A DNA stretch of 64,000 bases from Planctomycetota bacterium (GTDB lineage Bacteria > Planctomycetota > Phycisphaerae > Phycisphaerales > UBA1924), in assembly GCA_039819165.1 (NCBI GenBank), contig JBCBSM010000001.1, positions 434,001 to 498,000 of the forward strand. The letters run 5' to 3'. The translations under genes and the position numbers were made by a program. The notes under the pieces are model-generated. The model was given only the letters and a program-made list of their open reading frames with translations, was not told the DNA's origin and ran no database searches. Positions 39,861-51,890 of the stretch are shown piece after piece. Every line of letters begins with the position of its first letter. Position 1 is the first letter of the stretch.

Positions 39861-40169
39861 TTACGAGCCGCCGACCTCGTAGCCCTGCTCGATGTAGCTC
39901 TGCTGCTGCTCCTCGATGCGTTGCAGTTCTTCGCGCTTCTCTTCTTCGGTCGGAGGCACGTACCGCACCGTATTGCCGCTGCTGTCCTTGGGCCCGCTGC
40001 TGCCGAAGGGCGAGGGGATGATGTTCAGCTGCATGGCGATCACGACGCCCGCGACGACGAAGATGGCCGCGGCGATCCCGATCTTGATGACCTTCGGATC
40101 GACCCCGCCGCCTCCGCCGGAGCTACCACCCGAACCTGCAACATCGATGCCGTCGAGAAGGGATGACAT
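39861..40169 (-). CDS. Small single-pass membrane protein with polyglycine linker
   Basis: A 102-residue protein: a short N-terminus, a Gly/Ser linker (SGGSSGGGGG), one membrane helix (IKIGIAAAIFVVAGVVIAM) and a hydrophilic C-terminal tail with Glu/Gln-rich helix (EEEKREELQRIEEQQQSYIEQ). ATG 40169 has GGAGG eight bases upstream. The orientation of the helix is undecided. It may be a small membrane partner. It is downstream of the ABC permease gene and could be in its transcript, although 165 bases separate them. Confidence 0.6.
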   Translation of the reverse strand: MSSLLDGIDVAGSGGSSGGGGGVDPKVIKIGIAAAIFVVAGVVIAMQLNIIPSPFGSSGPKDSSGNTVRYVPPTEEEKREELQRIEEQQQSYIEQGYEVGGS

Positions 40170-40334
40170 GGGGAGATCCTCCGAATCCAGGTCTGGGCTG
40201 GTTGGCCGCGCCCAGGCCCCGCGGGTACACCAAACCGATGGCAACTCTAGTCGCCGCACGGGCACGCATCGAGCCCTGGCAGACGCCCCAGACAGGAGTC
40301 TGTACGCGAGCCCGAGGCGGCGGTTCTGCGGCCG

Positions 40335-41690
40335 CTAGCCCACGTCGCGACGCTGGAACAGGGCGACGGCGAGCGCCAGGAAGGCGGCGATCTGGAGCGA
40401 CGCGTAGACCACAATCATCGCGAAATGGGTTACCGGAACGGCCCGGTTCTGGGTCACCGCGTCGAGCAGCCAGAAGTAGTGCATATTGGGCACGACCGCC
40501 CACAGCCCCGCCACCAGCGGATTGACGCGAGTCGGCCTCATAAAGACGTAGTCGTCCGACCTGGGCGCCCGGGCGACCGCCTGCGGCTCCCGGCCCACGT
40601 TCCGCACCACCAGCGTGGTGCCATCGGACTCGACCACCACGAGGCCCGGCGGGGTCTCGGGCCTAAACAGCGCCGCGGTCTCCGACGCGTCGCCCTCGAA
40701 GGGCGCAAACGTGCCCGAGGCGAGCGAGAAGCCGTTCGGGTTGGCGCCGTAGAAGAAGGAGCTGCCCGCCGGCACCCGCTGCCTTGGCAGATCGGTCAGC
40801 GTGATGGTGTAGGTGGCCCCACGGCTGCCGAGCCCCTCGTCCGCGGTGGACGCCGGCTCGGCCGACGCGATGACCCCCAGCACGTCGTTCTGATAGGCCT
40901 GGCGGCCCAGGAAGTGGTTGGAGAGAAGACCGCCGAAGAACACCGCCGCGCAGGTGATGATGGTCATCACCTGCCCGAGCCTGGTCGATGCGGCCGTCGC
41001 CACCGCGGTCAGGACGAGGATCGCCAGCGCCATCGCGCCGCAGGCGACCAGGATCTTGGGCTTGAGGTCCACCATCGGCGACTGCAGTTCCCACCGCTTG
41101 GAGAACAGCAGCACCGCGACGTAGGCCAGCACGATGAGCGGCAGCAGCGTCGTCATGGCCGTCTGGTTGAACGACCATCCGTACATGTAGTTGGCGGCAG
41201 CCGCCAGCAGCAGCGACGCAAACACCGCACCGAATCCGAACAGGAGCACCGGTTGGTCGAGGTGGTCGCCCGCGGTGCTGAGCACGCCGTGGCGGATGGC
41301 CAGCATCAGGAAGGCCAGCATGATGACCACGGCGCCGGTGATCGCCCCGGCGACCCCGATGTACTTGCCCGCGACAACCACGGCCCGCGGGATGGGCTTG
41401 CTGATGACCGTGAGCATCGTGCGGCGCTCGATCTCGGAGGAGACCACCGCCGTCGCCAGGAACGAGGCCATCAGCACGCCACAGCCGAAGATGGTCGCTA
41501 AGCCGATGTCCAGCAGCAGCTTGTTGTCGGCGGAGACCTCCGCGGTCGAGCTGCGGCCCATGGAGAATGCCGCCGTCCACGTGTTGAAGACCTGCAGCAG
41601 GGCGCAGGCGAGCACCAGCAGAAGCAGCACGGGCTGGCGGACGCTCTCGACGAACGTGTTGCGGGCGATGGTCAGCAGCTGGTTGAGCAT
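40335..41690 (-). CDS. ABC-2 type transporter permease
   Basis: A 451-residue membrane protein with an N-terminal amphipathic region (ARNTFVESVRQPVLLLLVLACALL), several helices (ATIFGCGVLMASFLATAVVSS, IGVAGAITGAVVIMLAFLML, FGAVFASLLLAAAANYMYGW, ACGAMALAILVLTAV), and a hydrophilic stretch of about 150 residues before the final helices (MIVVYASLQIAAFLALAVALF). The motif RRTMLTVISKPIPRAVVVAGKY is the cytoplasmic coupling region typical of ABC-2 permeases and resembles QRDKIIWQTVTKPVAAWHYLLGK in the permease at 47914. No ATPase gene lies beside it on this strand, so the one at 46692 may serve both. Confidence 0.8.
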   Translation of the reverse strand: MLNQLLTIARNTFVESVRQPVLLLLVLACALLQVFNTWTAAFSMGRSSTAEVSADNKLLLDIGLATIFGCGVLMASFLATAVVSSEIERRTMLTVISKPIPRAVVVAGKYIGVAGAITGAVVIMLAFLMLAIRHGVLSTAGDHLDQPVLLFGFGAVFASLLLAAAANYMYGWSFNQTAMTTLLPLIVLAYVAVLLFSKRWELQSPMVDLKPKILVACGAMALAILVLTAVATAASTRLGQVMTIITCAAVFFGGLLSNHFLGRQAYQNDVLGVIASAEPASTADEGLGSRGATYTITLTDLPRQRVPAGSSFFYGANPNGFSLASGTFAPFEGDASETAALFRPETPPGLVVVESDGTTLVVRNVGREPQAVARAPRSDDYVFMRPTRVNPLVAGLWAVVPNMHYFWLLDAVTQNRAVPVTHFAMIVVYASLQIAAFLALAVALFQRRDVG

Positions 41691-42002: not shown

Positions 42003-44111
42003 ATGTCGGGCGACATCAACACCTACCGCCGCGCGTCGGGACACTGCGTCCTGGGCCTGATCCTGCAGATCATCGTGGGCTGCGGCCTGCTGATCTACGG
42101 TGCCGTCGGCCAAGAACCGACCGCGATCACCGGCTCGATATTCGCGTTGGCGGGGGTGCTGCCCTGGCTGGTGCTGCTGATCCTCTACGACCAGCACCGC
42201 CGCGAGCGGATCGAGGCGATGGAGGCCGAGGCCTTCGCCGCCACCGACGCGGCGACGTCCTCGGTGTTCGAGGAGGTCGGCGACGACCTGCGGGTCTCGG
42301 GCCGGCGGCTTCGCCTGCTTCGGCTGTACGCGGTTCCCGCCGTCGGGCTGGTGTTCGCCGCGATCCTCGCGACGCTCGGGGTGCTGCGGTTCGGGCCGGG
42401 CCGAGAGGCCGCCCAGCCCGCCACCTTCGTCGAGCCCACGCACGATCTGGTGGGCCTGACGCTCGGCCTGGCGATCGCGGTCCTCGGGTTCATGTTCAGC
42501 CGCTACACCGCCGGCATGGCCAAGCGTCCCGCGTGGACGGCACTGCAGGGCGGCGCGACGGTGGCCGCCGGTACCGCGCTCTTCGGCTTCGTCGTCGCAC
42601 TGGGGCACATCGTCAACCAGCTGGGATCGGACCAAGTGCTGCGGGCGATGCTCTACATCGCTCCGGCCTTGCTCGTCGTGCTCGGCGCCGAGACGGTGCT
42701 CAACTTCCTGCTGGAGCTCTACCGCCCCCGCAAGCCCGACGAGGGCTTCCGCCCGCCCTTCGCCTCGAGGCTGCTCGGCCCCCTGGCCTCGCCCGAGACC
42801 GTGGCCGAGTCGGTCAGCGGCGCCATCGACTACCAGTTCGGCTACGAGGTATCGCGGAGCTGGATGTACCAGCTGCTGACCCGCCGTGCATGGCTGCTGG
42901 TGCTTGTCGCGCTGCTGCTGATCTGGGGCATGACCTCGGTCGTCGTGGTGCGGCCCGACCAGACGGCCATCCATACCCGCTTCGGCGGCGTCGTGCGGGC
43001 GAGCGTGGAGCCCGGCCTGCGATGGAAGTGGCCCTGGCCCATCGACCGCATCGAGGTGCCCGGCGTGTACGAGCCCCTGGAGGACGGCGGCACCCGGCTG
43101 ACCGGGCGCTCAACCGCCGTCGTGCGCATGGTCTGGGGCGCCAGCGCGCCGCGGGCCCTGGACGACCGACCGCCGCTGTGGTCCAACCTGCAGGAAGAGG
43201 ACGACTCCTCCATGCTGGTGCAGCCCTCGCGGGACACCGTGTCCGGTGTGGGCGGCGCCACCGACGGCCGCGACCTGAGCCTGATGCGGGTGGAGGTGCC
43301 CGTCCGCTTCGCGATCGACGACGTGGAGGCCTGGGCGCTGCTCACCCAGGATGGCGCCCACCAGGAGATCCTCGACCGCATCACCCAGCGGGTGGTCATG
43401 CGGTACCTCGTGCGGACCCGCGTGGACGAGCTGCTCGGCGCACAGCGGCGGGAGATGGCCGCCGAGATCCGCGATCGGCTGCACGACGAGTACGTGCGGA
43501 TCAACCCCAAGTCGGACGGCGAGCCCGTCGTGCGGATCCTCTCGGTGGGCGTGACGGGTGTGGCTCCGCCGGCGGGCGCCTCGCTGCAGTTCGAGCAGGT
43601 CATCGAGGCCCAGCAGAAGTACCTCGCGCAGAAGGCGGCGGCCGAGGCCGACGCCATCCAGACGCTCACCGAGGTCGTCGGCTCGGTCGACCTGGCCGAT
43701 TCGATCGTGGCCTCGATCGAAGAGCTCAACGCCCTGACCGAACTGCAGTCGCAGGAGGCGACCGACGAGCGGTCCCGCCGCATCGTCGAGAAGCAGATCG
43801 AGATCGAGGCCTTGCTGGCCGACGCTGGCGGCGAGGCCGCGGCGCTCATCGCCGAGGCCAACGCCGGCCGGTGGGAGCGGCACATGGGCGAGCGGGGTGA
43901 CGCGGCGCTGTACGCCGGCCAGCTCGCCGCCGACCGCGCCAACAGCTCGTATTATCGCGCGCAGCTGTACCTGCAGCGGTTCTTCGACGCCCTGCAGGAT
44001 CGCCGGGTCACCATCGTGCCCGACGCCGCCGACCTGCAGCTCGACGTCGACGTCACATTCGAGAGGCAGGACACGGGATTCCTGCAGGACGACTTCCGTG
44101 GCGGCGGCTGA
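42003..44111 (+). CDS. SPFH/band-7 protein with polytopic N-terminal membrane domain (HflK-like)
   Basis: A 702-residue protein. Seven hydrophobic segments lie in the first 316 residues (about 15-35, 43-62, 107-127, 149-166, 184-204, 214-236, 296-316), and the last of them leads into an SPFH domain (VVVVRPDQTAIHTRFGGVV, LRWKWPWPIDRIEVPG). The helical part follows (DRITQRVVMRYLVRTRVDELL, EQVIEAQQKYLAQKAAAEADA), ending with DALQDRRVTIVP. HflK proteins normally have one N-terminal helix, so the added six-helix domain is unusual. The family forms membrane rings with HflC that control FtsH or organise membranes. It leads the operon 42003-51890, 60 bases before the HflC-like gene. Confidence 0.85.
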   Translation: MSGDINTYRRASGHCVLGLILQIIVGCGLLIYGAVGQEPTAITGSIFALAGVLPWLVLLILYDQHRRERIEAMEAEAFAATDAATSSVFEEVGDDLRVSGRRLRLLRLYAVPAVGLVFAAILATLGVLRFGPGREAAQPATFVEPTHDLVGLTLGLAIAVLGFMFSRYTAGMAKRPAWTALQGGATVAAGTALFGFVVALGHIVNQLGSDQVLRAMLYIAPALLVVLGAETVLNFLLELYRPRKPDEGFRPPFASRLLGPLASPETVAESVSGAIDYQFGYEVSRSWMYQLLTRRAWLLVLVALLLIWGMTSVVVVRPDQTAIHTRFGGVVRASVEPGLRWKWPWPIDRIEVPGVYEPLEDGGTRLTGRSTAVVRMVWGASAPRALDDRPPLWSNLQEEDDSSMLVQPSRDTVSGVGGATDGRDLSLMRVEVPVRFAIDDVEAWALLTQDGAHQEILDRITQRVVMRYLVRTRVDELLGAQRREMAAEIRDRLHDEYVRINPKSDGEPVVRILSVGVTGVAPPAGASLQFEQVIEAQQKYLAQKAAAEADAIQTLTEVVGSVDLADSIVASIEELNALTELQSQEATDERSRRIVEKQIEIEALLADAGGEAAALIAEANAGRWERHMGERGDAALYAGQLAADRANSSYYRAQLYLQRFFDALQDRRVTIVPDAADLQLDVDVTFERQDTGFLQDDFRGGG

Positions 44112-44170: not shown

Positions 44171-45202
44171 ATGCCCAAGACCAAGTTCCTCGTGTCGATG
44201 CTCGTCGCGGCCGCCTTCGTGGTCGTGCTGGTGCTGTACTCGGTGACCTACACGGTGCGATTCACCGAGGTCGCGGTGGTGACGCGGCTCGGCCAGATCG
44301 TCGATACGCGGGCCGAGCCCGGGTTGGGCGGCAAGCTCTTCTACCCCATCGACTCGGTCACCAAGTACGAGACCACGAGCCGGCTGACGCAGGCCAAGAT
44401 CGAGACCTACCAGACCCGCGACGATCGCCAGCTGATCATCGGCGCCTTCGCGATCTGGCGGATCAAGCCCGAGGAGGCCGACGTCTTCTACCGCCGCTTC
44501 GGCAGCGCGGGCACGCGGGACGAGCACTACGAGGCCGCTGCGACCCTGGTCGAGGACACCCTCCGCAGCGCCATGTCCGAACTCAGCTCGTACGCAATGG
44601 CCGAGCTGTTTACGCCCAACGAGGGCGAATCCCGCCTCGATGAGCTCGAGGCGGCCGTGCTGGCGCAGATGAAGGCCAACCTCGAGGGCCAGGGCGAGCG
44701 GAGCTTCGGCATCGAGGTCCAGCAGACCGGGCTCGCCCGCGTCACGCTGCCCCAACAGACTACCGAGGCTGCCCTCGAGCGGATGCGGCAGGACCGCGCC
44801 CGCCTCGTGACCGAGTTGGAGGGCCAGGGCGAGTCCGAGGCGCAGGCGATTCGCTCGACCGCCACCTCACAGGCCAACATCATCCGCGAATTCGCCGAGA
44901 ACCGCGCCAAGGAGATCCGCTCACTCGGCGAAGCGGAGGCGGCCCAGTATCTCGCCGCCATGCAGGCCAATCCGGACCTGGCAATCTTCCTCAAGCAGCT
45001 CGAGATGCTCGACCAATCGCAGTTCTCTCGGGCCACGCTGATCTTCTCGACGGCGGCGCCTGGACTGAACCTGCTGGATCCATCGCTCTTCGCGAACGCG
45101 CGGCCGGGCGAGATCCCGGGCCTCGAGCCCTTCGTGTCGGCCGATCGGGGCGACGCGATGCTCGCCGATCCCCAGTCGGTGGAGGACGATTCCGGTGAGT
45201 GA
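44171..45202 (+). CDS. HflC-like SPFH protein
   Basis: A 343-residue protein with one N-terminal membrane helix (about 6-25), then the SPFH domain (EVAVVTRLGQIVDTRAEPGLGGKLFYPIDSV) and a helical stalk with KANLEGQGERSFGIEVQQTGLARVTLPQQTTEAALERM. This is the standard HflC pattern, including the downstream EAQAIRSTATSQANIIREFAENRAKEIRSLGEAEA. HflC pairs with HflK in the membrane. Here it is encoded between two other SPFH genes. Its stop overlaps the next gene's start by eight bases (GTGAGTGA), so those two are tightly coupled. Confidence 0.9.
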   Translation: MPKTKFLVSMLVAAAFVVVLVLYSVTYTVRFTEVAVVTRLGQIVDTRAEPGLGGKLFYPIDSVTKYETTSRLTQAKIETYQTRDDRQLIIGAFAIWRIKPEEADVFYRRFGSAGTRDEHYEAAATLVEDTLRSAMSELSSYAMAELFTPNEGESRLDELEAAVLAQMKANLEGQGERSFGIEVQQTGLARVTLPQQTTEAALERMRQDRARLVTELEGQGESEAQAIRSTATSQANIIREFAENRAKEIRSLGEAEAAQYLAAMQANPDLAIFLKQLEMLDQSQFSRATLIFSTAAPGLNLLDPSLFANARPGEIPGLEPFVSADRGDAMLADPQSVEDDSGE

Positions 45203-46649
45203 CGCGACCAACGGCGAACCAACACGCCCCGAGGATGGGCACGACGACTCCATCGAGTCGGTGCTGCCCGCCGCCGAAGAGCAGGAATCGACCGCCCGCG
45301 CGGCCTCGCTGCGGCTCCGCACGCAGGAGGAGAGCGGCGAGCGGACCATCGACGACATGCACGCCGCCAACGAATCGCTGGCGGCGGCCTTCCGGACGAT
45401 GTTCCGGTTGCTGCAGGTCGCGATCGTCGGCCTCGTCGTCGTCTACGGCGTCAGCGGCATCAAGGCCGTCGATGCCGGCCAGCGGGGCATCAAGACGCGC
45501 TTCGGCGAGCCGCTGGGCACCGAGGTCTCGCCCGGCATCACCTTCGCCTGGCCCTACCCCATCGGCCAGCTGATCCGGGTCGAGACCGGCCAGCGGACGC
45601 TCCAGCTCGAAGAGGAGTTCTGGTTCGAGGTCCGCGAGCAGGATCGCAACCTTCCCTTCGAGCAGCTTGCGCGGCTGCCGAGCCGATCGCTCAACCCGGT
45701 CCGCGATGGCTCTCTGCTCACAAGCGACCAGAACCTCGTGCACACGCAGTGGACCATCGTCTACCGCCGTGCCGATCCCACGCAGTTCGCCCAGAACATC
45801 GCGGCCGAGGACGAGGAGGCCATCGTGCGATCGGCCGTGCAGCGCGGGGTCATCCGCGCCGTTTCGGCCACGACCATCGACGACCTGCTCCGGTCCGCCG
45901 CGGGCGCCGGGGGCGTGGCGGCGCGGGCTCAACGGGTCGCCCAGGAGACGCTCGATGCCGTCGACTCGGGGCTGATCGTCGAGTCGCTGGTGATGCGGCA
46001 GCGCACGCCGCCCATGAGGGTGTGGAACGCCTTCACCGAGGTGCAGGGCGCGGAGACGGCCGCCCAGACCGCACGCGTCTCCGCCGAGTCGTTCGCGCAA
46101 AAGGAACTCAACCGCGTGGCGGGGCCCGCCGCCGGCGAGATCCTCCGCCAGATCGACCGCTACGAGGCGGCCGTCGAGCTGGGGGACGATGCCGAGCAGG
46201 CGCTCGCGCTCGACACCGTGCGTGGGCTGCTCCATGGCGACGAGGTCCTCATCGACGGCGACCTCGAAGTCATCCCCGTCAGCGGTGAGGTCACGCAGAT
46301 CCTCAACGAGGCCGAGCGACAGAGGGTGGAGGTCGCCCAGGCGGCCCGCCGGATGCTCCGCCTGTACGAGGTCAAGCAGGCCCAATTCCTCGAGGATCCC
46401 GACCTGGTCGTGCGTCGGGACTGGGCCGAGGCGATGACCAGCTTCCTCGAGCGGGAGACCGTCACGACGATGATGGTGCCGCCCGGCGTGCTGCGGCTTG
46501 CGCTCAACCTGGATCCCGAGACCCAGCGCCGCGCCCGCGAACTGGAGCAGGAGCGGCTCAACGAGGAGGCAGCCGATCGACGCGAGCGGCGGCTCCGCGA
46601 GGAGGCCTTCCGCACCGATACCGGCAGGCGGGAACTCGATGGCGGCTGA
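45195..46649 (+). CDS. Second HflK-like SPFH protein
   Basis: A 484-residue SPFH protein starting at GTG 45195. The N-terminal ~65 residues are acidic and disordered, followed by a membrane helix (LLQVAIVGLVVVYGVSGI, about 72-89) and the SPFH domain (GQRGIKTRFGEPLGTEVSPGITFAWPYPIGQL). A loop of nearly 30 residues (RLPSRSLNPVRDGSLLTSDQN) precedes the helical part (AFTEVQGAETAAQTARVSAESFAQKELNRVA). The C-terminal ~80 residues are Arg/Glu-rich helix (RRARELEQERLNEEAADRRERRLREEA). A third ring-forming partner in the same operon is not usual for HflKC. Confidence 0.85.
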   Translation: MSDATNGEPTRPEDGHDDSIESVLPAAEEQESTARAASLRLRTQEESGERTIDDMHAANESLAAAFRTMFRLLQVAIVGLVVVYGVSGIKAVDAGQRGIKTRFGEPLGTEVSPGITFAWPYPIGQLIRVETGQRTLQLEEEFWFEVREQDRNLPFEQLARLPSRSLNPVRDGSLLTSDQNLVHTQWTIVYRRADPTQFAQNIAAEDEEAIVRSAVQRGVIRAVSATTIDDLLRSAAGAGGVAARAQRVAQETLDAVDSGLIVESLVMRQRTPPMRVWNAFTEVQGAETAAQTARVSAESFAQKELNRVAGPAAGEILRQIDRYEAAVELGDDAEQALALDTVRGLLHGDEVLIDGDLEVIPVSGEVTQILNEAERQRVEVAQAARRMLRLYEVKQAQFLEDPDLVVRRDWAEAMTSFLERETVTTMMVPPGVLRLALNLDPETQRRARELEQERLNEEAADRRERRLREEAFRTDTGRRELDGG

Positions 46650-46691
46650 GTGCCGACGCGTGGACGCTCGTTCACCCCAGGAGCACAGGGC

Positions 46692-47912
46692 ATGACGCAG
46701 ACGGCAGCGACCACCGCGGCCACGCAAGGCGGGGAGGCCCCGCGGCCGGTCATCGCCTGCCAGGGCCTGACCAAGATCTTCCGCGACTTCTGGCTCAGGC
46801 CCAGGGCCCACGCCGTGGGCGACCTGACCTTCGACGTCCGGCCGCACGAGGTCTTCGGCCTGCTGGGCCCCAACGGCTCGGGCAAGAGCACGACCATCAA
46901 GATCATCCTGGGCCTGCTCAAGCCGACGCGGGGCCGGGTCGCCGTGTTCGGCCGACCGCCGACCGACGTCGCCATCAAGAAGCGGATCGGCTACCTGCCC
47001 GAGGAGAGCTACCTCTACCCCTTCCTCAACGCCCGCGAGACGCTGGACTACTACGGGCGGCTGTTCGGCCTCGACCACCGCACGCGGCAGGGTCGCATCG
47101 ATGAGCTGCTGGATATGGTCGGCCTCAGCGGTGCGCAGTACCGCCAGGTCCGCGAGTACTCCAAGGGCATGCAGCGGCGGATCGGGCTCGCGCAGGCGCT
47201 CATCAACGATCCTGACCTGCTGATCCTCGACGAGCCGACCACGGGTCTGGATCCGATCGGCACCCGGCAGGTCAAGGACCTAATCCTCGAGCTGGGCCGC
47301 CGCGGCAAGACGGTGCTGCTCTCCAGCCACCTGCTGGCCGACGTCGAGGACGTGGTCGATCGCATGGTCGTGCTCTACGGCGGCACGCTGCGCAAGGCGG
47401 GCGACCGCGACGCGCTGCTCGAGAGCCAGGACAAGACCACGATCGAGACCGACGCGCTCGACGACGCCACGCTCAGCGAGATCGACGAGGTCATCCGCCG
47501 CCGCACGGGCGGGGCGAAGTCGGTCCGCCGCGTCGCGCACCCGAGGCAGCGGCTCGAGGAGCTGTTCCTCAGCATCGTCGAGGAAGCCCAGGCCGAGCGC
47601 CTGGACAACGCCGGCGCCGCCCACGGGGGGCGGACGGCCGAGTTCCTCCGCGATGCGGGCGAGCCCGACGGCGGGGCGCTCATCGATGACCTGGTGCGGG
47701 GCGCGCCCGAGCCCGAGGAGCCACCGGCGCCCGCCGAAGCCGCGGAGCCGGCCGAGCCCGAACCCGTGGAGGACGTCGTCGAGAGCCTACTGGACGAGGA
47801 CGTCCGGCCCAAGGAGGCGGCCGAGCCCGACGAGGCCGCCGAGGTCGACATGAACGTCATCGGCTCGCTCGTCGACGACGACGGCGACGCCCCCAAGCCG
47901 CGGGAATCCTGA
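46692..47912 (+). CDS. ABC transporter ATP-binding protein with long acidic tail
   Basis: A 406-residue ATPase. The nucleotide-binding domain (about 20-240) has Walker A GPNGSGKS (59-66), Q-loop, the signature helix (YSKGMQRRIGLAQALINDPD in place of LSGGQ), Walker B LLILDEPTTGLDP and the H-loop SSHLL. The C-terminal ~170 residues include a helical part and a low-complexity acidic Pro/Ala/Glu tail ending DGDAPKPRES. It starts at ATG 46692 with AGGAG upstream. An earlier GTG at 46650 is less likely. It is followed after one base by the permease gene and probably energises that permease and the one at 40335. Confidence 0.92.
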   Translation: MTQTAATTAATQGGEAPRPVIACQGLTKIFRDFWLRPRAHAVGDLTFDVRPHEVFGLLGPNGSGKSTTIKIILGLLKPTRGRVAVFGRPPTDVAIKKRIGYLPEESYLYPFLNARETLDYYGRLFGLDHRTRQGRIDELLDMVGLSGAQYRQVREYSKGMQRRIGLAQALINDPDLLILDEPTTGLDPIGTRQVKDLILELGRRGKTVLLSSHLLADVEDVVDRMVVLYGGTLRKAGDRDALLESQDKTTIETDALDDATLSEIDEVIRRRTGGAKSVRRVAHPRQRLEELFLSIVEEAQAERLDNAGAAHGGRTAEFLRDAGEPDGGALIDDLVRGAPEPEEPPAPAEAAEPAEPEPVEDVVESLLDEDVRPKEAAEPDEAAEVDMNVIGSLVDDDGDAPKPRES

Positions 47913-47913
47913 C

Positions 47914-49884
47914 ATGGGCGAGCTGTGGGCGCGGCTGGACCGGCTGCAGAAGACCACCGGATTCAAGATCATCATGACGGCGATCGCCGCGGCGGTCGTG
48001 GTGGCGGCGGGGCTGGTCTACGTCGTCCAGTCGGGCGGGGACAGCCGCGCGAGCGATCAGATCGCGCTGGCCGACACCACCCAGATCGAGGACGCCGCGC
48101 TACGGGCCGCCGTCGAACGCGACCAGCGGGTCATCCTGGAGGTGCTGGACCAGGACCGCAGCCCGCAGGCCGTCGCGATCGGGCTCGCCGTCGCCGCGGG
48201 CGTGGGCATCACCGTCATCTGGCTGGGCCTGGCGATCACCTACATCGCGATGGGCCTGGGTGTCGCCGTCGTCGCGACGCCGCTGATCCTGGCGTCGAGG
48301 TACGGCTACGCGGGACCGATCACGGGGGAGATAGGCCGCATCCTCGTGGGTGCGGCGGCGCTGGCGGTGTGCTTCACCGCGGTGCTCGAGGTGCTCCGGC
48401 TGCTGCTGTCGGTGCCCACGGGCCCGGTCTTCGCCGTCGCGCGCAACGTGCTGGCCGAGGCGGTCCGCATGCGGGTCTCGCTGGTGTTCATCGTGATGCT
48501 CATCTTCGGGCTGGCGGCCGTACCGCTGCTGCTCAACGAGAGCGTCCCGCTCCGCTATCGCATGCAGAACTTCCTGCAGTACGGCACGGGCGGGGCGTTC
48601 TGGGTCATCGCGATCCTCACGCTGCTGCTGTCGGCGGCGACCGTCAACTTCGAGCAGCGCGACAAGATCATCTGGCAGACCGTGACCAAGCCCGTCGCCG
48701 CCTGGCACTACCTGCTCGGCAAGTGGCTCGGCGTCATCACCCTCAACGCCGCGCTGCTGGTGGTCACCGGGTCGGCGGTCTTCCTCTTCGCCGAGTACCT
48801 GCGGCAGCAGCCCGCGCAGGGCGAGCGGCAGGCCTACGTCGCGGCGGGGGTCCAGCTCGGGCGGTCGCCCATCAGCGAGGATCGCCGCATCCTGCACAAC
48901 CAGGTGCTCCAGGCCCGCGTCGCCCGCGAGATCGACAACCCCATCGACAAGAACAGCGAGCAGTTCGACGAACTCGTCGAGCGATACCTCGAGCAGCAGG
49001 AGGCCGCCGACCGCTTCGGCGACGATCTCCGCAGCGCCGAGACCCGCACGCAGATCCGCGAGGATCTGTACAAGGACTTCGTCTCGAGATACCGCTCGGT
49101 GCCGCCGGGCCGGACGCAGACCTACGTCTTTTCCGGCCTCGAGAAGGCGGCGACGCTCGATACCCCGCTGGTGCTCCGCTACAAGGTCGAGTCGGGCAGC
49201 AATCGCCCCGACGAGTTCTTCACGATCAGCTTCAATGCCGGCGGCGTGCCCTACGAACGCACGGTCGGACTCGCCCAGACGCTGATCATCGACGACATCC
49301 CGCCGACGGCCATCAACGATGAGGGCCAGCTGCTGCTGCAAGTGCTCAACGGAGGTGACGTCCACGAGCGCAACGGCGAGATCGTCGTCGTCGCCAATCC
49401 GAGGACCATCACCTTCCCGCCGGGCGGGCTGGAGCTCTCGTACAGCGTCGGCGGCTACCGCATGAACTTCTTCAGGGTCATCGTGGTTCTGTGGATCAAG
49501 CTGGCCTTCCTCTCGATGCTCGCCATCACCTGCTCCACGGCCCTGAGCTTCCCGGTGGCCTGCCTGACGGCGTTCGGCGCGTTCTTCGCGGCCGAATCGG
49601 CCCTCTTCCTGGAGGATTCCCTCGAGGTCTTCAACCCCTTCTACGGGGAGGGCGTCGGACCCGCGATCCTCTGGGTGGCCGAGTCCATCGGCGGCGCGAT
49701 CATCTGGGTCTTCCGAACGTACGCAGAGTTGAAGCCCACCAGCAAGCTCGTGCAGGGCGAGCTGGTCTCGTGGACGAGCGTGCTCGTCGGTGTCGTAGTG
49801 CTCAGCGCGTGGTGCGCGGCGCTCTTCGGCATCGGCTGGCTGGTATTCCGTAGCCGGGAACTGGCGATCTACTCGGGCAACTGA
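47914..49884 (+). CDS. Large ABC-2 type transporter permease
   Basis: A 656-residue membrane protein. The N-terminal helix (about 18-38) is followed by an extracytoplasmic helix and a cluster of hydrophobic segments (VAIGLAVAAGVGITVIWLGL, MGLGVAVVATPLILA, LVGAAALAVCFTAVLEVL). After the coupling region (QRDKIIWQTVTKPVAAWHYLLGKWL) comes a further helix (NAALLVVTGSAVFLFAEYL) and a soluble domain of about 200 residues rich in strands. The C-terminal helices end with AAESALFLEDSLEVFN...LVGVVVLSAWCAALFGIGWLVF. It belongs to the same broad permease type as the gene at 40335 but is longer. The start immediately follows the ATPase stop. Confidence 0.8.
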   Translation: MGELWARLDRLQKTTGFKIIMTAIAAAVVVAAGLVYVVQSGGDSRASDQIALADTTQIEDAALRAAVERDQRVILEVLDQDRSPQAVAIGLAVAAGVGITVIWLGLAITYIAMGLGVAVVATPLILASRYGYAGPITGEIGRILVGAAALAVCFTAVLEVLRLLLSVPTGPVFAVARNVLAEAVRMRVSLVFIVMLIFGLAAVPLLLNESVPLRYRMQNFLQYGTGGAFWVIAILTLLLSAATVNFEQRDKIIWQTVTKPVAAWHYLLGKWLGVITLNAALLVVTGSAVFLFAEYLRQQPAQGERQAYVAAGVQLGRSPISEDRRILHNQVLQARVAREIDNPIDKNSEQFDELVERYLEQQEAADRFGDDLRSAETRTQIREDLYKDFVSRYRSVPPGRTQTYVFSGLEKAATLDTPLVLRYKVESGSNRPDEFFTISFNAGGVPYERTVGLAQTLIIDDIPPTAINDEGQLLLQVLNGGDVHERNGEIVVVANPRTITFPPGGLELSYSVGGYRMNFFRVIVVLWIKLAFLSMLAITCSTALSFPVACLTAFGAFFAAESALFLEDSLEVFNPFYGEGVGPAILWVAESIGGAIIWVFRTYAELKPTSKLVQGELVSWTSVLVGVVVLSAWCAALFGIGWLVFRSRELAIYSGN

Positions 49885-49928: not shown

Positions 49929-51890
49929 ATGCCGACCGGCCGGGGCGTCCAGATCATCGCGATTGCGCTCTGCATCTTGTCCCTTGGGTTGTCGGGCGTC
50001 GTCTCGGCGCAGCTGACCGCGTCGGCGGGGCGGCACAAGCTGACCTACGCCGAGCGGGCCGAGGAGGGCGATCCGCCGGAGGTGGCCGTTGGCATCGCGA
50101 TGGGGGCCTTCCGCGGGCTGTTCGTCAACATGCTGTGGATCCGCGCCAACCAGCTCAAGGAAGAGGGCAAGTACTACGAGGCGGTCGACCTCGCCCGGGC
50201 GATCACGAAGCTCCAGCCCCGCTTCCCGCAGGTGTGGTCCTTCCACGCCTGGAACATGGCGTACAACATCTCGGTCACCACCAACACGCCCGAGGAGCGC
50301 TGGAACTGGGTCCGCCAGGGCATCGACCTCATCCGTGAAGAGGGCGTCGTCCACAACCCGGCCGACCTGGTGATCCACAAGGAACTCGCGTGGCTCTTCC
50401 TGCACAAGGTACAGGCCTACGCCGACGACGCGCACTTCTACTACAAGCTCCAGCACGCCGCCGAGTGGCACGAGATCCTTGGCCCGCCGCCGCACCCCGA
50501 GCCGGGCAACAACAACCGCGAGCGCCGCATCGAGCAATTCGAAGAGTGGCTCACGCCCATCGTCGAGGCGCCCGACACGCTCAGCGGGGTGATCGCCACC
50601 AACCCCGACGTCGACGAGCTGGTCGCCCAGCTTGCGGTGCTCGACATCGAGCCCAGTGGCGCGAAGATGCTCCGCAACGTCACCCGCACACGGGCGGCTC
50701 GGAACTCGGCTACCTGGCCCGTGCTCCAGCGGCAGGCCGACGATCGCTTCCGGCAGATCGCCGCCCTCGTAGAAGACCCGAGGCACGCCGACGCGTGGGA
50801 GGATCTGCTGGCCTACGGCCGGCGGCGGATCCTGCTCGAAGAATACAACATGGAGCCGGCCCGCATGCTCCGCTACACCAGCAAGTACGGCCCGCTGGAC
50901 TGGCGGCACCCCGCGGCGCACTCGCTCTATTGGTCGCAGAAGGGCGTCGAGGCGGCGCTGCTCCGCGTCGAGGACGAGAATCGCTCCGACTACGATTTCA
51001 TCAACACCGACCGTATGGTCGTGCAGTCCGTGCAGGAGCTCTGGCGCAGCGGCGACCTGTGGTTCGACTACAACGGCATGCTGCTCAACCCACACGGCGG
51101 CCAGCCCTTCTACCTGGGCCTGCCCAACACCGCCTACATCCCGGTGTACGGCGAGATCCTCGAAGAGGTGGTCGCCCGCAGCTGGGCCGACGGCCTCGAT
51201 CGCGCGTACAGCTCCTACTTCGCTGGCTACGAGAACTTCATGAAGGACGCCATCCGCTACCTGTACCGGCGGGGCCAGAAGCAGCTTGCCGCCGAGATGA
51301 AGGACGAACTCGCCCAGTTCCCCTTTAGCAACACGAATGACAGGACGCGTGCGCAGTGGCTGGCCCAGGACATCGATCGCTTCGTCAAGGCCGAGATCGT
51401 CGATCGCGTCGGTTCGCCCGTGGTCGCCCAGACCGAGGTCCGCGGCGCGATCCAGGACGCGCTGCTGTCGGGCCTGATCAATGGCGACGACGACATCTTC
51501 GACAACCAGATCGCCTACGCACGGCAGTTCCACGCCGCCTACCTCGAGGAGCAGCTCCGCGAGAACAACGTGACCAACCAGGGCGGCCGGATGGAGTTCC
51601 TCGATCGCCGCTTCGACTTCGAGGTCGGCAACATGTTCCGCCGCCTGCTGCTCACCCTGGATCTGGATTACGCCACCACGGGCTACGCCAACGCGCCGCC
51701 CGAGCTCAAGCGGTGGGCGTACGACGACCTCGTCGGCGCCGTCAGGCCGGCCTTCGAGGAGGCGACCGAGGAGGGCGACCCCGACTTCGACGTGCTCTTC
51801 CCCGAGCCCGAGGGCATGGAGCAGTTCCGCGCCATGGTCCGAGGCGAGCTCGAGGGCCGCGCACGGGACATCGAGCGCGAGGCCAAGTAG
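49929..51890 (+). CDS. Large exported or anchored protein of unknown family
   Basis: A 653-residue protein with an N-terminal hydrophobic segment (IIAIALCILSLGLSGVVSA, about 9-27) that is a signal peptide or anchor. The mature part is helical and aromatic-rich, with repeated TPR-like pairs (KEEGKYYEAVDLARAITKLQPRFPQVWSFHAW, VQAYADDAHFYYKLQHAAEWHEI) and several tryptophan-rich stretches (WFDYNGMLLNPHGGQPFY). No known domain is recognised. Its place as last gene of the SPFH-ABC operon, 44 bases after the permease, suggests it is the extracytoplasmic substrate or helper of the transporter. Confidence 0.7.
   Translation: MPTGRGVQIIAIALCILSLGLSGVVSAQLTASAGRHKLTYAERAEEGDPPEVAVGIAMGAFRGLFVNMLWIRANQLKEEGKYYEAVDLARAITKLQPRFPQVWSFHAWNMAYNISVTTNTPEERWNWVRQGIDLIREEGVVHNPADLVIHKELAWLFLHKVQAYADDAHFYYKLQHAAEWHEILGPPPHPEPGNNNRERRIEQFEEWLTPIVEAPDTLSGVIATNPDVDELVAQLAVLDIEPSGAKMLRNVTRTRAARNSATWPVLQRQADDRFRQIAALVEDPRHADAWEDLLAYGRRRILLEEYNMEPARMLRYTSKYGPLDWRHPAAHSLYWSQKGVEAALLRVEDENRSDYDFINTDRMVVQSVQELWRSGDLWFDYNGMLLNPHGGQPFYLGLPNTAYIPVYGEILEEVVARSWADGLDRAYSSYFAGYENFMKDAIRYLYRRGQKQLAAEMKDELAQFPFSNTNDRTRAQWLAQDIDRFVKAEIVDRVGSPVVAQTEVRGAIQDALLSGLINGDDDIFDNQIAYARQFHAAYLEEQLRENNVTNQGGRMEFLDRRFDFEVGNMFRRLLLTLDLDYATTGYANAPPELKRWAYDDLVGAVRPAFEEATEEGDPDFDVLFPEPEGMEQFRAMVRGELEGRARDIEREAK

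Follow-up and report, generated by a model that had tools for sequence, protein, structure and literature searches.

What an HflK-type SPFH protein does with a polytopic membrane domain is the question raised by a gene, here called SPFH1, that lies at 42003-44111 on the plus strand of a 64,000-nucleotide stretch of a Planctomycetota genome (GCA_039819165.1, contig JBCBSM010000001.1, positions 434,001 to 498,000; hereafter the window). The open reading frame begins with ATG and encodes 702 amino acids, and the initial annotation, which saw only the letters and their translations, counted six hydrophobic segments ahead of the one that leads into the SPFH domain, where known HflK proteins have a single helix. 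The answer developed here is that the six segments correspond, in predicted fold, to the transmembrane domain of the cation diffusion facilitator (CDF) family, that the metal site of this domain appears to have been lost, and that SPFH1 heads a conserved operon of three SPFH genes and a transporter. This operon, which the initial annotation does not mention, is the main functional clue. On the reading proposed here, to which we give somewhat better than an even chance, three SPFH proteins form a cage that serves the neighbouring transporter, with the degenerate CDF domain as its platform in the membrane.

Kyte-Doolittle hydrophobicity (window of 19 residues) peaks in SPFH1 at residues 15-33, 42-60, 110-128, 148-166, 186-204, 219-237 and 298-316, the last peak running into the SPFH domain and the other six lying N-terminal to it, just as had been described; an eighth, weak peak (1.24) at residues 509-527 falls within the SPFH domain. 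At a peak threshold of 1.3, 36 of the 38 aligned sequences show seven peaks and the other two show six, whereas the HflK proteins of Escherichia coli, Tistrella, Azospirillum and Alkaliphilus each display one, in keeping with the claimed norm of the family. The 38 rows of this alignment (A1) are the SPFH1 of the window and 37 of 40 loci fetched from the 79 genomes that match its N-terminal region, with L056 and L072 left out for their split frames and L069 by choice. The helices of an AlphaFold2 model span residues 5-36, 39-80 (with a break at 51), 98-130, 148-172, 181-206, 211-240 and 287-310. Lysine and arginine are in excess on the predicted cytoplasmic side in all 38 sequences (mean 18.6 inside and 2.6 outside), a bias that depends on two long inner loops and is found in 27 of the 38, with seven ties, if only the N-terminus and the short loops are counted; it places the N-terminus in the cytoplasm, and thus the SPFH domain is predicted to be periplasmic, as in HflK. 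Six residues (E71, G171, E230, S255, Q278 and G280) are invariant across all 38 N-terminal parts, which argues that the architecture is not a product of chance.

This architecture is a conserved planctomycete family. The search for the N-terminal region in other genomes that the initial annotation had proposed bore it out: queried as a single sequence, the first 295 residues match 79 of 392 genomes of the phylum, and profile searches, for which 90% completeness was asked of the genomes, match 163 of 198 genomes of the window's class and 77 of 294 genomes of the phylum, 54 of the 77 belonging to that class. The pattern [DN]YQFGFx[VI][ST] occurs in at least 592 stretches of genome contigs, of which 569 were confirmed by tblastn. 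Among these, the 80 named loci, which served only to assign names, are all planctomycete except for one 'uncultured bacterium', and fall mostly in the Phycisphaerae, Phycisphaerales and Sedimentisphaerales, with others in Brocadiia and Kuenenia; the 80 kept loci and the plasmid collection described below are the ground covered for members of the family outside the planctomycetes. A stand-alone form of the N-terminal domain was considered and set aside, as nearly all domains among the matches listed are fused, in frames of about 580-1040 amino acids, leaving room for a rare stand-alone gene. Shorter frames (G480, G111, G171, G149, G107, G164, G388:C112, G276 and others) may stem from the end of a contig, from a split frame or from a match that is weak and partial.

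The nature of the N-terminal domain was approached first through its predicted structure. A model of residues 1-318 attained a predicted local distance difference test score of 87.8 and a predicted template modelling score (pTM) of 0.82, and Foldseek placed ZnT7, ZnT1 and YiiP at the top of its ranking, with weak E-values (best 0.013). Re-scoring of the 1000 best Foldseek matches with VIA-align over the same residues gave CDF chains at every rank from 1 to 33 (Z 19.6 to 8.8), led by YiiP (8f6k_B; Z 19.6, 206 residues at 3.1 Å), with the 16 best spanning Z 15.1-19.6 over 179-206 residues; the first row outside the family is a rhodopsin at Z 8.1. The ExbB and G-protein-coupled receptor rows of Foldseek and the rhodopsin rows of VIA-align were judged to be chance likenesses. 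A profile comparison was therefore made between the 38 SPFH1 N-terminal domains (alignment A2) and 22 CDF proteins gathered from related genomes by family search. The two profiles align in register across transmembrane helices TM1-TM6, over 186-194 columns, with an hhalign probability of 69.5 in one direction and 93.5 in the other, whereas the controls (reversed profiles and the permA and permB permeases described below) reach a probability of 11.4 at most. Against 40 hydrophobicity-preserving permutations, the best of which attained a score of 31.3, a probability of 22.1 (one profile) and a length of 84 columns, the real match stands at a score of 53.6, a probability of 92.9 and 195 columns. 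Circularly shifted CDF profiles still match (probability 8-89) and cannot serve as a negative control because intact CDF stretches remain in them.

That the likeness is a chance resemblance of six-helix bundles, and the domain an unrelated polytopic scaffold, seems to us very improbable, although several results lean that way and weigh against a CDF identity. Foldseek alone returned no CDF match below E 0.001 for the N-terminal model; Pfam, Cation_efflux included, has no match at E 0.1 over the first 295 residues; a helical bundle can reach about Z 13 solely through its arrangement, and a Z of 13.5 is not attained by 17 of the 33 CDF rows; and one of the 40 permutations did attain the probability of 22.1. 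Searches of the N-terminal domain against NCBIfam and the sequences of the Protein Data Bank returned nothing useful, the best match in the latter being VPH2 at E 0.23. Set against these are the top score of Z 19.6 with its unbroken run of 33 CDF rows, the in-register profile match that the controls failed to reproduce, and an outright CDF-HflK fusion in Aquibium, discussed below. A CDF-type transmembrane domain is accordingly taken to be a well-supported predicted fold for the six helices (residues 1-240; 42003-42722, plus strand), an assignment that combines the hydrophobic peaks, the model, VIA-align, hhalign and the ligand positions. SPFH1 shares with known CDFs (YiiP, ZnT1, ZnT3, ZnT7, ZnT8 and SLC30A10; PF01545) the topology and order of these helices as well as the profile similarity, but differs from them in its want of the four-residue metal site, of the CDF C-terminal cytoplasmic domain and of a Pfam match. 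TM6 is followed instead by about 55 residues and then by TM7 and the SPFH domain. CDF-like frames of about 200-215 amino acids, which seem to be transmembrane domains devoid of a CDF C-terminal domain, were also observed in the genome of the window and in relatives (L186, L187, L188 and L182).

Equivalents of the four CDF metal ligands were placed through the profile alignment at positions 47, 51, 187 and 191 of SPFH1. Position 51 is Gly in 34 of the 38 proteins, position 187 is mostly Tyr (20 of 38) and position 191 is Asn, Thr or Ser in 27; neither of the latter two is ever His or Asp in the 38 sequences. In the 22 CDFs, Glu/His/Asp, Asp/Asn, His (18 proteins) and Asp (all 22) are retained at the four positions, and the CDF motif pair, (H/D/E)xxxD in TM2 with HxxxD in TM5, is not found in SPFH1. 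The counterpart of the [R/K]A that lies beside the CDF site is position 182, which is Arg in 35 of 38 proteins and Gln in the window. Judged from the aligned sequences, none of the 38 SPFH1 proteins retains the set of CDF metal ligands, and for this reason the channel-like platform that the initial annotation had entertained finds no support. It also appears improbable that the domain is an active transporter of ions or metal that relies on other residues and is assembled on the SPFH ring. The CDF fold itself is compatible with such a transporter, as are E230 of TM6, which is Glu in 38 of 38 proteins, an acidic residue (Asp or Glu) at position 238 in 22 of 38, the motifs retained in Aquibium and the metal P-type ATPases that adjoin related trios; the loss of the site-A equivalents extends to all 38 proteins, however, the model has no CDF C-terminal domain after TM6, and E230 is predicted to sit in the third of its helix nearest the cytoplasm. 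The CDF domain of SPFH1 probably serves as a platform for docking and does not carry out transport itself.

The alternative offered by the initial annotation, fusion of a separate membrane protein, gains support from fold and profile and from a protein in which both partners are recognizable. On plasmid NZ_CP018172.1 of Aquibium oceanicum, a protein of 515 residues annotated as HflK (WP_072608301.1; positions 1288-2835 of locus L196) matches both Cation_efflux (4.5e-25) and Band_7 (2.9e-20) in Pfam. Like SPFH1, it consists of a CDF domain, a membrane helix and an SPFH domain, and is encoded by the first of three SPFH genes, here followed by a peptidylprolyl isomerase gene and then by that of a heavy-metal P-type ATPase. 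Its CDF domain aligns with the SPFH1 family profile over 231 columns (probability 75). Unlike SPFH1, it keeps both HxxxD motifs intact (HSLAD in TM2 and HSQVD in TM5), and its SPFH domain groups with canonical HflK, a joint clade with the SPFH1 family being marginally rejected (approximately unbiased (AU) test, p 0.0425). This placement favours, without proving, two independent CDF-HflK fusions. No second outright fusion was seen among the 30 records listed, out of 61, in a search confined to plasmids.

Residues 241-295 of SPFH1 (42723-42887, plus strand) form a predicted cytoplasmic linker with motifs conserved in alignments A1 and A2, YRPR at its start and the strongly conserved consensus sequences DSRLL and DYQFGFxVSxTWFYRLL, and lead into the seventh transmembrane helix (residues 296-316; 42888-42950, plus strand), assigned from its peak and the model and positioned like the single helix of HflK. 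The SPFH/Band 7 domain (residues 317-530; 42951-43592, plus strand) is of the HflK type: Band_7 is matched at E 2.6e-10 with 41.1 bits against a Pfam cut-off of 23.6, the A1 profile matches E. coli HflK (7vhp_E) at E 7.7e-40, and Foldseek returns HflK chains 7vhq_E and 9cz2_XA as the top matches of the SPFH1 model. A long helical region follows (residues 524-664; 43572-43994, plus strand) in the secondary structure of the model. SPFH1 thus resembles E. coli HflK (7vhp, 7wi3 and 9cz2) in its SPFH domain, its C-terminal helix, an adjacent HflC-like partner and a predicted periplasmic SPFH domain, whereas the E. coli protein has one membrane helix and no third SPFH gene beside it, and SPFH1 has six extra CDF-type helices, a place in a transporter operon and a score under the HflK equivalog cut-off. 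In a tree of SPFH domains, planctomycete SPFH1 and the proteobacterial polytopic HflK proteins described below form one clade of 24 rows with a Shimodaira-Hasegawa-like approximate likelihood ratio (SH-aLRT) support of 95, and the HflC-like members of the trios group together with a support of 94. The tree was built by a quick method with SH-aLRT values only, no bootstrap and one long outgroup, with rows drawn from 16 of the 40 fetched loci together with five of the seven plasmid trios and two of the five divergent planctomycete loci.

SPFH1 is followed at gaps of at most 59 bases by five genes on the plus strand. The first, SPFH2 (44171-45202), encodes an HflC-like SPFH protein with one N-terminal hydrophobic peak, recognized by Band_7 (6e-18), by TIGR01932 (4.6e-23, below the cut-off) and by the tree, and overlaps by eight bases with SPFH3 (45195-46649), which encodes a third, HflK-like SPFH protein with one peak (Band_7 7.4e-14; TIGR01933 2.9e-23, below the cut-off; tree). 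Directly after the SPFH3 stop begins the gene of an ABC transporter ATPase (46650-47912; ABC_tran 1.9e-32; best NCBIfam matches DrrA and GldA, below their cut-offs), and then that of permB (47914-49884), an ABC-2-type permease with 12 Kyte-Doolittle peaks and a large extramembrane insert at about residues 293-521. The permease was assigned from ABC2_membrane_3 (8.3e-4, below the cut-off) and from its homology to permA (hhalign probability 98.5 over 101 columns), a second ABC-2-type permease that is divergently encoded here (40335-41690, minus strand; ABC2_membrane_2 1.3e-8). The final gene of the conserved unit (49929-51890) encodes a TPR-like protein for which the only Pfam match is TPR_14 (0.039, below the cut-off), and which was recognized by its conserved position and its co-occurrence with SPFH1. 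Among the 40 loci, SPFH2 and SPFH3 both lie downstream of SPFH1 in 36, the full set from SPFH2 to the TPR gene does so in 33, and permA is found upstream in 35, reading away from SPFH1 in 22 and in its direction in 13. The seven loci without the full set include L062 and L076, which are cut off by the end of their contig, and L069, where the third SPFH gene, missed by the SPFH3 query, was found with a family profile. At E <= 1e-25, a hand tally finds the TPR gene in 162 of 163 genomes of the class that carry SPFH1 and in two of the 35 that do not; at a limit of 1e-5, 196 of 198 genomes match, those without SPFH1 mostly weakly. Two side observations concern this neighbourhood: permB, with its large insert, and the TPR-like protein, which has no clear Pfam family, are both conserved alongside the SPFH trio, and a 134-residue protein with one hydrophobic segment by eye and no Pfam match (39861-40265, minus strand) is also encoded beside the locus in the close relatives L037 and L038.

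The transporter differs among related trios. A plasmid sample, in which 18 records matched and 11 were opened, yielded seven trios (L158, L159 and L189-L193) and four other loci (L195-L198). On plasmids of Paraburkholderia, Burkholderia, Rhizobium and Klebsiella, all seven of the opened trios combine a polytopic HflK, an HflC-like protein and a third SPFH protein with a P-type ATPase, the genes being annotated in four of the seven and assigned by similarity in the rest. The trio order of polytopic HflK type, HflC type and third SPFH is that of the window in each of the seven. Seven hydrophobic peaks are present in five of the first genes and fewer in those of L189 and L193, which were scanned to residue 400 only, and the N-terminal domain of the proteobacterial first genes matches the planctomycete profile across TM4-TM7 (probability 97). 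Polytopic first genes (6-8 peaks) were likewise seen at five further, divergent planctomycete loci, of which four have the full trio and the fifth lies on a short contig. In both of those scanned for neighbours (L160 and L162) the trio is flanked by a heavy-metal P-type ATPase and an ArsP-type permease, whereas the trio of the window is adjoined by an ABC ATPase and permease, with no metal P-type ATPase beside it. A NicO/DsbD-like protein is also encoded near the trio of L160.

A comparable cluster is found in Pseudomonas aeruginosa, in which PA2439-PA2438-PA2437-(PA2436)-hmtA brings together an HflK-family protein, an HflC protein, a further SPFH protein and a transporter, and the plasmid trios of Burkholderia, Rhizobium and Klebsiella share this layout, with a polytopic first gene. 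The transporter of the P. aeruginosa operon is a P-type ATPase, whereas that of the SPFH1 operon is an ABC exporter. In a PAO1 znuA mutant, PA2439, PA2438 and PA2437 are 9.0-, 10.6- and 14.4-fold up and the importer HmtA 5.6-fold (PMC4542158), the PA2437-PA2439 proteins are higher in zinc depletion, with varying significance (PMC11761036), and Zur binds the PA2439 promoter (PMC8531726). One study of PA14 describes nine SPFH proteins, three of them (PaFlo5-7) encoded in one operon whose deletion is reported to lower biofilm by about 20%, to attenuate the strain in Galleria and to have little other effect (PMC13086221). From gene order, PaFlo5-7 would appear to correspond to the PA2437-PA2439 trio, and PA2439 would be polytopic. 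The portions of these reports that were available make no mention of seven helices or a CDF domain in the proteins of the operon, and those of a survey of bacterial SPFH proteins speak of N-terminal membrane regions and name no seven-helix HflK (PMC2636767).

Conservation of the gene set, with two more SPFH proteins and a transporter, suggests a cage built around that transporter. SPFH1 would be the HflK-type subunit of a three-component complex with the HflC-like SPFH2 and with SPFH3, and its CDF domain would have lost both the metal site used in transport and the C-terminal cytoplasmic domain. The three proteins may build a periplasmic cage like that of E. coli HflK and HflC, with the degenerate CDF domains seated in the membrane at its foot, where they could dock or confine the co-encoded transporter (in the window an ABC exporter with two permeases, in the other branches a heavy-metal P-type ATPase), such that the cage would control the surroundings, assembly or turnover of its client. 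The computed observations behind this proposal are the CDF fold of the model, the likeness of the profiles, the missing ligands, an operon conserved among relatives and the two types of transporter beside related trios.

A planctomycete version of the HflK/HflC cage around FtsH, active in the turnover of membrane proteins, with the extra helices recruiting substrates and the transporter having no physical link to it, is the leading rival, and one that we consider unlikely. The SPFH part is indeed of the HflK type at the E-value given above, and although SPFH1 and canonical HflK fall in separate clades of the free tree, a joint clade is not rejected (AU p 0.69). The genome encodes FtsH and seems to have no HflK/HflC-like set besides the trio, for its two further Band_7 genes resemble flotillin and prohibitin by eye. 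The gene for FtsH is on another contig, however, and SPFH1 scores 51.6 bits against TIGR01933 (HflK, SPFH3 subfamily), for which the equivalog cut-off is 159.4. Fixed linkage to a transporter, and to a different transporter beside related trios, is likewise at odds with this rival, and neither a third SPFH protein nor a CDF domain is known to be part of the E. coli HflKC-FtsH complex.

Several observations weigh against a transporter-dedicated cage with a degenerate CDF platform. The evidence for functional coupling of trio and transporter consists entirely of gene neighbourhood and co-occurrence, and the set is not always whole: L056 is without permB and the TPR gene, L064 without the ABC ATPase and the TPR gene, L074 has only SPFH2 within about 9-10 kb downstream, and an SPFH1 homologue in L067 (11987-13987, minus strand) stands without a recognisable SPFH or ABC partner over the 12 kb or so that follow it. 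In the tree, the third SPFH members lie unresolved at the base, the full-length SPFH1 model, made as a monomer, attains a pTM of only 0.46, and the proteobacterial N-terminal profile, compared directly with the CDF profile, does not match it (probability 0.1). Position 47, otherwise mixed, is His in 10 of the 38 SPFH1 proteins, so that one ligand-like residue remains in some of them. In one study of P. aeruginosa, moreover, hmtA mRNA is low and not repressed by zinc (PMC8531726).

The cage with a degenerate CDF platform nonetheless remains our preferred reading, and a wider proposal may be extended from it, tentatively and at less than an even chance: a class of transporter-specific SPFH cages of three subunits, one bearing a ring of degenerate zinc-transporter domains, in which the client has changed between an ABC exporter and P-type ATPases for heavy metals; fusion of a CDF domain to an HflK may have happened two or more times. 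SPFH1 belongs to a known kind of SPFH protein, but, as the initial annotation had supposed, standard family architecture does not, as far as the searches reached, account for its combination with a CDF-type domain; no description of a polytopic or CDF-fused HflK was found in the open literature, most subscription papers being beyond the reach of the search. The finding offers a domain boundary (residues 1-295) together with a natural CDF-SPFH fusion with an intact site, that of Aquibium, and may give structural context to the zinc-starvation SPFH operon of Pseudomonas. For the question of what cages of the HflK/HflC type enclose besides FtsH, a conserved SPFH trio that is locked to a transporter operon, and in which one subunit carries a membrane domain of transporter origin, provides a genetic handle on whether SPFH rings serve as transporter-specific membrane compartments.

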